Source: Natronospirales bacterium (GTDB lineage Bacteria; Pseudomonadota; Gammaproteobacteria; Natronospirales; REEB76). From it: a DNA stretch of 34,406 nt. Positions 4,888-32,406 of this stretch are shown piece by piece; within the stretch, counting starts at the first letter, position 1, and each line of letters starts with the position of its first letter. The stretch lies in assembly GCA_018971605.1 (NCBI GenBank), contig JAGXAL010000008.1:1-34406 (forward strand). The letters run 5' to 3'. The position numbers were made by a program, and so were the translations under genes. The notes under the pieces are model-generated. The model saw nothing but the letters and a program-made list of their open reading frames with translations. It was not told the DNA's origin and made no database searches.

Positions 4888-5047
4888 ATTTGCGCCTGTA
4901 GGTGAGGCAGGTGTATTAATCGGACAGCCAGTGGCTGTCCGATCGTGCCGAACGCCACGACAGGATGTCGGGACCGGGGGCTGAAAGCACTAGTTCGTAT
5001 CGCCAGGGATGGCAGCGCGAGCGCAACATGTGTATTTGCGCCTGTAG
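4888..5047 (-). repeat. tRNA-linked palindromic element, copy B (reverse orientation), including flanking direct repeats
   Basis: DR ATTTGCGCCTGTAG at 4888-4901 and 5034-5047 (second copy is the tRNA-Arg 5' end). Palindromes ATCGGACAGCC-AGT-GGCTGTCCGAT (4919-4943), CGACA-GGA-TGTCG (4958-4970), GCCAGGGATGGC (5002-5013); terminal GGTGAGGCAGG next to the DR. Confidence 0.7.
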
Positions 5048-5218: not shown

Positions 5219-5286
5219 TTTTTGATGAAGCGTCCAGAAAATATTTTTCGTATGAATCATTGTTTGCTGCCAAAGAATCCTCTGGT

Positions 5287-5362
5287 GGGCCGTTAGCTCA
5301 GTTGGTAGAGCTGCTGACTCTTAATCAGTAGGTCGCAGGTTCGAGTCCTGCACGGCCCACCA
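5287..5362 (+). tRNA. tRNA-Lys (anticodon CTT)
   Basis: Acceptor GGGCCGT/ACGGCCC, anticodon arm GCTGA-CTCTTAA-TCAGT, encoded CCA. Confidence 0.93.
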
Positions 5363-5510
5363 GAGGATTCTTGTTCTTTGGCATTTGCCATCCATGGCGC
5401 GCTTACCGGCGCGGACTTCCATGTCCGCGCGCTCAGCCGGGACGAAATGCCACAGGCATTTCGTCGAAATCTGCCGGCCTCGCCCTGCACGCCCACCAGA
5501 GGATTCTTGT
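5347..5510 (+). repeat. tRNA-linked palindromic element, copy C, including flanking direct repeats
   Basis: DR CCTGCACGGCCCACCAGAGGATTCTTGT (5347-5374) and CCTGCAC-GCCCACCAGAGGATTCTTGT (5484-5510). Palindromes GCCATCCATGGC (5387-5398), GCGCGGAC..GTCCGCGC (5409-5430), GACGAAATGCC-ACA-GGCATTTCGTC (5441-5465); GCCTCGCC abuts second DR. Confidence 0.75.
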
Positions 5511-5600
5511 ATTTGATGCTAACCATCCATGGTGCGCTTACCGGCCGCGCTTGCGGGCCGCACAGTTGATCACAGAATAGCCAACCGTCGGTTGTCTGTG
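5511..5600 (+). repeat. Decayed tandem second unit of the palindromic element (C2)
   Basis: ACCATCCATGGTGCGCTTACCGGC (from 5522) matches copy C GCCATCCATGGCGCGCTTACCGGC; then GGCCGCGCTTGCGGGCC and CAACC-GTC-GGTTG. Confidence 0.55.
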
Positions 5601-30609: not shown

Positions 30610-32016
30610 ATGACCGTCCGTACCCGCTTTGCCCCCAGTCCCACCGGTTATCTGCACATCGGCGGCGCCCGCACCGCGCTGTTCTGCTGGCTGTACGCGC
30701 GCCATCACCATGGCCAGTTCATTCTGCGCATTGAGGACACCGACCGCGAGCGCTCCACGCCGCAAGCCGTACAGGCGATCCTCGACGGCATGGGCTGGCT
30801 GGAACTGCGGCCCGACGAGGGGCCCTTCTATCAGACGCAGCGCTTTGACCGCTACAGTGAAGTGGCGGCGCAGTTGCGCCGTACGGGGCACGCGTATCAC
30901 TGCTATTGCAGCAAGGAGGAACTGGAACATATGCGTGCCGAGCAGTTGGCACGCAAACAGAAACCGCGTTACGACGGCCGTTGCCGCGAGCGCAAGCAAT
31001 CGTTGCCCGGCGTCGCGCCGGTGCTGCGCTTCAAGAACCCACAGACCGGTCAATCGGTGGTCAACGACCTGGTACGCGGCAAGGTGGTGTTCGACAACGC
31101 GGAACTGGACGATCTCATCATCCTGCGCTCGGATGGCACGCCCACCTACAATTTCACCGTGGTGGTGGACGACATGGACATGCACATCAGCCACGTGATC
31201 CGCGGCGACGATCACCTCAACAATACGCCGCGCCAGATCAACATTTTCCAGGCGCTCGGCGTGGAGCCGCCGCAGTACGCGCATCTGCCGATGATCCTAG
31301 GGCCGGACGGCACCAAGCTCTCCAAGCGCCACGGCGCGGTGAGCGTGATGCAGTACCGCGAGGATGGCATATTGCCAGCCGCCTTGCTCAATTACCTGGT
31401 GCGTCTCGGCTGGTCGCACGGCGATCAGGAAATCTTCACGCGCGAACAGATGATCGAATATTTCGACCTCGGCGACGTGAATCAGTCGGCCTCGGCCATC
31501 AACCCCGCGAAGCTCGAATGGCTGAACCAGCAATACATCAAGGGCGGCGATCCCGAGGTGCTGGCGACGGAACTGCGCTGGCATCTGGCGCGCGTGGGCG
31601 TCGAGACCGATGACGAAGCCAAGCTTGCCGCCGTGGTGCGCGCGCAGGCCGAGCGCGCCAGGACGCTCAAGGAAATGGCGGAGCACAGTCGCTTTTTCTT
31701 CCAGGACTTTGCCGACTATGACCCGCAAGCAGCTCAGAAAAATTTGACGGTGGACGCCCAACCGGCGCTCACCACGATAAGGGAAGGGCTGGCGGCGCTC
31801 AAAGACTGGTCGGCCGCCGCGGTACATGTGCTGGTGGGTGAGGTAGCGACAGCAATGGACGTGAAGCTCGGCAAAGTCGCGCAGCCGCTGCGGGTGTCGG
31901 TTTCCGGCGGCAGCATCTCGCCGCCCATCGACGTGACCCTGGAAATCCTCGGGCGAGAGGTGACGCTGGCACGGCTGGATCGTGCGCTTGCCTGGATCGC
32001 GGCACAAACCCGCTGA
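30610..32016 (+). CDS. gltX: Glutamyl-tRNA synthetase (second copy)
   Basis: [56 protein letters not shown]; beside tRNA-Ala(GGC) and tRNA-Glu. Confidence 0.96.
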   Translation: MTVRTRFAPSPTGYLHIGGARTALFCWLYARHHHGQFILRIEDTDRERSTPQAVQAILDGMGWLELRPDEGPFYQTQRFDRYSEVAAQLRRTGHAYHCYCSKEELEHMRAEQLARKQKPRYDGRCRERKQSLPGVAPVLRFKNPQTGQSVVNDLVRGKVVFDNAELDDLIILRSDGTPTYNFTVVVDDMDMHISHVIRGDDHLNNTPRQINIFQALGVEPPQYAHLPMILGPDGTKLSKRHGAVSVMQYREDGILPAALLNYLVRLGWSHGDQEIFTREQMIEYFDLGDVNQSASAINPAKLEWLNQQYIKGGDPEVLATELRWHLARVGVETDDEAKLAAVVRAQAERARTLKEMAEHSRFFFQDFADYDPQAAQKNLTVDAQPALTTIREGLAALKDWSAAAVHVLVGEVATAMDVKLGKVAQPLRVSVSGGSISPPIDVTLEILGREVTLARLDRALAWIAAQTR

Positions 32017-32074: not shown

Positions 32075-32150
32075 GGGGCTATAGCTCAGCTGGGAGAGCG
32101 CCTGCATGGCATGCAGGAGGTCGCCGGTTCGATCCCGGCTAGCTCCACCA
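32075..32150 (+). tRNA. tRNA-Ala (anticodon GGC)
   Basis: Acceptor GGGGCTA/TAGCTCC, anticodon arm CCTGC-ATGGCAT-GCAGG, encoded CCA. Confidence 0.95.
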
Positions 32151-32291
32151 GAGATTGTTGTGACTGGTGGCAGAGAGCCATCCATGGCGGACAGACCAGC
32201 TTGGACATCCTGTCCAAGCGCTGGGCAGGAACGAACAGCCACTGGCTGTTCGTTTGGAGCACCTGCCTCGCCCCGGCTAGCTCCACCAGAG
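32134..32291 (+). repeat. tRNA-linked palindromic element, copy D, including flanking direct repeats
   Basis: Perfect 20-bp DR CCCGGCTAGCTCCACCAGAG at 32134-32153 (tRNA-Ala 3' end) and 32272-32291. Palindromes GCCATCCATGGC (32177-32188), CTTGGACA-TCC-TGTCCAAG (32200-32218), CGAACAGCC-ACT-GGCTGTTCG (32232-32252); CCTGCCTCGCC (32262-32272) abuts second DR. Confidence 0.8.
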
Positions 32292-32406
32292 TTTTGGAGA
32301 GAGAACTCCCAGAACCGTCCTTGGTGCGCCAACCGGCCCGGACATCGTGTCCGGGCACTCGGCGGGGCGAAGCAGTGCTTCGCCTGGTAGCGTGTCCCGG
32401 GGCGAG
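32292..32406 (+). repeat. Decayed tandem second unit of the palindromic element (D2)
   Basis: ACCGTCCTTGGTGCGCCAACCGGC matches C2 ACCATCCATGGTGCGCTTACCGGC; CCCGGACA-TCG-TGTCCGGG (32337-32355); GGCGAAGCA-G-TGCTTCGCC (32366-32384). Confidence 0.6.

Follow-up and report, generated by a model that had tools for sequence, protein, structure and literature searches.

We describe a family of small repeats, termed E here, whose copies carry three hairpins, sit at the ends of conserved genes and, with a probability that we put at about one half, have spread between species by homologous recombination at the same locus. E appears to be a previously undescribed family of small DNA elements, either mobile or exchanged, which lodge at essential genes yet leave them intact. 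The element is non-coding, spans 97-113 nt and consists of hairpin P1, hairpin P2 and, within an outer stem (GGCAGG/CCTGCC), hairpin P3, ending in CCTCGCC. Its copy D adjoins a tRNA-Ala gene in the window (the whole stretch of DNA analyzed here, 34,406 nt), which is contig 34 of genome G000 (1.94 Mb, 91% complete). The locus has the following parts, with bit scores from model R1, which was built together with alignment A1 from eight G000 copies:

32075-32150, plus strand: intact tRNA-Ala(GGC) gene, faced by P1 (ARAGORN and Rfam tRNA)
32134-32150, plus strand: 17-nt end of the tRNA-Ala gene that recurs past copy D, starting at the T-arm CC ('X')
32151-32176, plus strand: 26-nt flank (f) separating tRNA-Ala from P1, similar to the trailers that G008 and G001 have at this locus
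32177-32272, plus strand: element E, copy D (103 bits)
32177-32188, plus strand: hairpin P1 of copy D, GCCATCCATGGC
32199-32219, plus strand: hairpin P2 of copy D, GCTTGGACATCCTGTCCAAGC
32224-32229, plus strand: outer-stem 5' strand, GGCAGG (the stem encloses P3)
32231-32253, plus strand: hairpin P3 of copy D, ACGAACAGCCACTGGCTGTTCGT
32262-32267, plus strand: outer-stem 3' strand, CCTGCC, after which the fixed box end TCGCC runs to 32272
32272-32291, plus strand: relic, in which the tRNA-Ala 3' end is repeated perfectly and whose first base is the last C of the box
32314-32401, plus strand: decayed second unit (D2) after copy D (46 bits)

The original prediction, made from the letters of this DNA, was of an exact 20-bp duplication of the tRNA-Ala end, and the perfect repeat CCCGGCTAGCTCCACCAGAG is indeed found at 32134-32153 and 32272-32291, with a spacing of 138 bp. 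It starts in the T-arm, runs beyond the CCA end and lengthens to 23 nt if one mismatch is allowed. The three predicted palindromes are likewise all in place, with the box touching the second repeat, although the outer stem had been overlooked. When the 96 nt of copy D were folded as single-stranded DNA, P1, P2, P3 and the outer stem formed with z = -5.9, and none of 200 shuffles was equally stable. None of the ORFs listed mechanically through the copy D region accounts for the conserved structure, as had been claimed, and a search of the same region for a terminator found none. Relics agree with each species' own tRNA, reading GCTAGCTCC in G000 and GCTGGCTCC in G008.

Copies A and B lie elsewhere in the window:

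4888-4901, minus strand: tRNA-Arg 5'-end relic of copy A; the plus strand reads ATTTGCGCCTGTAG
4901-5013, minus strand: element E, copy A (86 bits), upstream of tRNA-Arg(TCT) with P1 towards the tRNA start
5287-5362, plus strand: tRNA-Lys(CTT), the gene of copy B
5387-5484, plus strand: element E, copy B (99 bits)
5484-5516, plus strand: tRNA-Lys 3'-end relic and similar flank, after copy B

A partial second unit follows the relic of copy B, with a P1 core (CCATCCATGG) at 5523-5532. Copy A duplicates the 5' end of tRNA-Arg, so E is not confined to tRNA 3' ends; a description limited to these ends is thus too narrow, and E occurs on both sides of tRNA genes with P1 towards the gene. Two other features of the window are recorded here in their own right: the leader and trailer of tRNA-Lys(CTT) (5272-5385) are complementary (AAAGAATCCTCTGG / CCAGAGGATTCTTGTTCTTT), lengthening the acceptor stem, and two glutamate--tRNA ligase genes of the gltX type (685-2109 and 30610-32016) are ~37% identical.

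The expectation that the same layout recurs elsewhere was borne out within G000, across its genus and in other families. R1 located E at 29 places in G000 (E-value < 1), about 25 of them solid, and detected it in 10 of the 11 genomes of the window's genus, with 7-41 copies per relative, as well as in the single genome of the same family and three genomes of the same order. Across the class, 16 of 243 gammaproteobacterial genomes were positive (E-value ≤ 1e-5), representing at least a dozen further families, and their copies again mostly adjoin tRNA genes. These distant copies are ~110 nt long and have ~17 additional nt between P1 and P2, like copy A. Since the layout is present in single-contig genomes (G037 and G103), it is not an assembly artefact. 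In G003, two contig ends (C26 and C48; loci L122 and L123) carry equal-score E copies at a tRNA-Leu end, and E repeats may break or collapse assemblies of metagenome-assembled genomes (MAGs) in this way.

No named family had been recognized in the original prediction, and in a comparison of E with the Rfam covariance models no family scored at or above its gathering threshold: tRNA alone passes, with nothing meaningful inside E. A literature search, with most subscription papers outside its reach, found no description of the family. Genome-wide scanning with a DNA pattern gave mostly chance matches (4 of 38 records were convincing with R1), and a search of phages and plasmids for E gave no match. 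We therefore rejected carriage by phages or plasmids; where the DNA pattern turned up in viral contigs, three in all, it did so by chance (best, 16 bits). We also rejected a young G000 subfamily, to which bit scores had pointed; R1 was trained on G000 copies, and nearest neighbors are without genome clustering.

The hairpins are conserved as structures. In an alignment of 116 distinct copies, itself fitted to the structure, 94.4% of cells hold standard pairs, both partners have changed in 25 of 28 pairs and 765 double-change cells were observed versus 221 in shuffles; in a control in which partners were slid, pairing falls to 31-44%. The original eight copies gave 95% pairing versus 26-42% when slid. 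On the opposite strand, the P1 and P2 loops read CANGGATG, which we take to resemble CsrA/RsmE binding hairpins or sites.

The geometry of E relative to genes is regular, with P1 nearly always turned towards the gene and the box on the far side. A tRNA gene lies within 100 nt on the P1 side in 59 of 123 copies and on the box side alone in 2, and one tRNA may have E at its 3' side, its 5' side or both (both at L072, L074, L076 and L081). Among 58 tRNA-adjacent copies, 55 have a box followed by a copy of the adjoining gene end, and in 54 of those 55 the relic begins no more than one base from the box, at a CC found within the gene; this CC lies in the T-arm for 3' ends and mostly in the D-loop, antisense, for 5' ends. 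In a control with unrelated tRNAs, 13% show a gene-end copy after the box, because the D-arm is shared. From this CC to P1 there are 38-48 nt (median, 41) where E lies 3' of the gene and 32-51 nt (median, 46.5) where it lies 5'. The same arrangement occurs at the starts of the protein genes murG, sucD, sdhE, rpe and xthA (named from translated starts and context), so the tRNA targeting of the original prediction stands as a preference but not as a restriction. Tandem arrays repeat the full unit of gene end, flank and E; for example, tRNA-Met of G037 is preceded by seven units and followed by three. The box joins the CC inside the gene, and on the P1 side the gene end is complete, which leaves the gene intact and a relic of its end outside.

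Several comparisons bear on how E came to be so distributed. In non-tandem copies (n = 31), median identity is 100% for the gene part of the repeat and 31%, near random, for the flank part; a plain duplication decaying over time would lose gene and flank alike, and the difference therefore favors exchange. The nearest neighbor of an E copy is at the same locus of another genome in 26 of 75 cases (2.9 expected) and within the same genome in 17 of 116 (13 expected). This kinship by locus rather than by genome means that present-day spread looks like same-locus exchange and not like a burst of transposition within genomes, so that of the predicted 'mobile' element the dispersal is confirmed, but the movement takes on another character. 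At protein genes, relic and intact start differ by nine synonymous and no nonsynonymous changes in sucD (P < 0.00025), by 11 and two in sdhE of G004 (P < 0.00025) and by five and two in murG (P = 0.012), all under a neutral-relic simulation; a synonymous excess was sought but not shown in sdhE of G002 and G003. The murG relic also retains the native ribosome-binding context, as in relatives without E at murG. In sdhE (L134, L149 and L140) and murG (L018), the relic frame is open through E and its TGA end overlaps the ATG of the intact gene, which suggests translational coupling across the element. Such frames could constrain relics through selection for coupling, and, as alternatives to exchange, gene conversion or selection may likewise explain why relics remain tRNA-like.

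Empty sites, a check proposed with the original prediction, are present as well. Six genomes of the same order (G013-G018) have a short interval from tRNA-Ala to tRNA-Glu, with neither E nor a copy of the tRNA end, and duplications without the palindromes, which had been named as the counter-evidence to look for in relatives, were not found at the tRNA-Ala locus. Within the genus, E copies or decayed remnants occupy this locus in every member in which it is readable.

We propose that E would have begun with a rare founding insertion that duplicated ~40-50 bp, and that it would then pass between species at the same locus via homologous recombination. The conserved gene end on either side of E would act as a homology arm, with crossovers limited to these ends; the incoming E, flank and gene end would replace the native end, which would persist as the relic. 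Tandem amplification of units and then decay would come later. We infer the exchange between related species from sequence comparison, with no close-strain donor-recipient pair observed. A bolder version, in which E is gene-less selfish DNA that duplicates the end of an essential gene as its homology arm and replaces that end across species by recombination, is one that we hold tentatively and at somewhat less than even odds.

Alternatively, E could be an ordinary non-autonomous transposon (MITE-, SINE- or YPAL-like), moved in trans with a ~40-50-bp target-site duplication from the CC, in which case gene ends would merely be those insertions that survive. The near-constant CC-P1 distance is reminiscent of a long target-site duplication, as is the 40-bp duplication of the distant copy L251, which contains two differences and stops exactly at P1, and the box end is fixed; YPAL/RU-2 also combines internal inverted repeats with variable 3-26-bp duplications, at targets near dyad symmetry (PMC2229807). 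Inverted dimers add to this: contig C1 of G103 has at least seven head-to-head E dimers scattered away from tRNAs (L294, L295, L296, L298, L323, L324 and L335, one with a nested insertion), which are ~265 bp long, 83-93% alike and flanked by the inverted repeat ACAGGATT..CAG / CTG..AATCCTGT. These dimers suggest that some form of E has been mobile, and they count against the exchange model, which does not predict them. Against a transposon, however, the gene half of the supposed duplication is identical in single copies whereas the flank half is dissimilar and usually not duplicated; in L251 the duplication is full, and nearly all perfect full-length duplications are tandem units. We therefore rejected a fresh target-site duplication as the sole explanation. 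Copies also do not cluster within genomes. No transposase or integrase is linked to E, which counts against the exchange model too. Within the limits of MAG completeness, searches found no Y1 transposase in the E-bearing genomes G000, G004, G005 and G011 (the last estimated to be 100% complete) and no reverse transcriptase in G000, G004, G003 and G008. Y1 transposases are present in some other E-bearing genomes; both enzymes were rejected as the mover of E, being missing from the E-rich G000 and G004. Overall, we consider a conventional transposon unlikely, while still a serious candidate.

Other explanations dispense with mobility. E might be a selected cis element of tRNA loci, relic included, with a role in processing or stabilizing RNA, in termination or in binding protein; that its structure is strongly conserved across families, that it persists at the same loci, that relics remain tRNA-like and that the loops presumably resemble CsrA/RsmE sites would all suit this reading. 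But the orientation of E tracks the gene end and not transcription (sense downstream, antisense upstream of tRNAs), the copy D region has no terminator, and E is missing from most of the gammaproteobacteria sampled and from the tRNA-Ala loci of related genera, which together make such a role improbable. The arrangement might also have arisen when tRNA ends were duplicated in tandem or slipped, with E as a passenger, as may hold for E. coli tyrT with its identical layout; arrays of perfect units would fit this. Against it, one of the two junctions coincides in every case with the exact box end of a single structured family, at dozens of unrelated genes and on both strands, the box/CC precision is unlike that of random duplication endpoints, and the flank differs between units in single copies; we find this origin quite implausible. 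Relics beginning in the T-arm are typical of integrase sites and in that respect recall remnants of integrase-type islands (attL/attR) in tRNA genes; yet dozens of different tRNAs, protein gene starts and 5' ends all carry the same box, and the ~140-bp unit has no integrase between its repeats and is too short for a gene, so that we attach very little credence to such an origin.

If same-locus exchange is the correct reading, conserved gene ends would be pointed to as ports for interspecies DNA exchange. E would also give a family-level frame to something odd but long familiar, namely tRNA genes trailed by repeats of their own 3' ends (tyrT), and it widens the phenomenon to include 5' ends as well as protein genes. 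Given a calibrated model, empty sites and relics that have been dated, strain collections would allow separate tests of founding, exchange and decay. For annotation, E serves as a warning of partial tRNA copies and of gene starts displaced by ~140 bp.

Finally, we compared E with known systems. The closest described layout is that of the E. coli tyrT 178-bp repeats and rtT RNA (Rfam RF00391), which are unrelated to E in sequence. At tyrT-tyrV (L293, E. coli K-12 1285800-1289200), 178-bp units stand in tandem as in E arrays, and each unit starts at the T-loop, covers the rest of the tRNA 3' end and continues into a segment that is not tRNA, likewise as in E. However, R1 reaches at best 7.6 bits on tyrT with filters off, which is no match in sequence or structure, and RF00391 does not match E copies; at the locus examined, the tyrT repeat is found at the 3' end of one tRNA gene only, whereas E is found at many genes and at both ends. 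REP/REPIN sequences, which are associated with REP-associated tyrosine transposases (RAYTs), share short palindromes and inverted pairs with E, but the three hairpins of E form a fixed unit that comes with a duplicated gene end, and the four genomes searched for Y1 transposases have no match. Unlike MITEs, E has no terminal inverted repeats, a single copy having the fixed box end at one side and P1 at the other, and MITE-like inverted ends are seen only in the G103 dimers. The reverse transcriptase of a SINE-like retroelement is missing from the four genomes searched for it, and the integrase gene that sets apart integrase-type tRNA islands is missing between the repeats. In fungal mitochondria, endonuclease-linked mobile gene ends bring their own gene end and leave the native end as a relic; E would be like them in both respects but is without an endonuclease gene. 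YPAL/RU-2 (Yersinia palindromic sequence) resembles E in its internal inverted repeats and in not being A+T-rich, but by its description it is 168 bp long, and the main text of the review makes no mention of tRNA (PMC2229807). The Beta-proteobacterial repeat element (BRE) is, like E, short (~90 bp), G+C-rich, tandem and locus-variable, and differs by description in that no tRNA association is reported (PMC3110155). On these comparisons, we class E as a new family of small structured repeats, akin in kind to YPAL, BRE and tyrT and belonging to none of the families against which it was tested.
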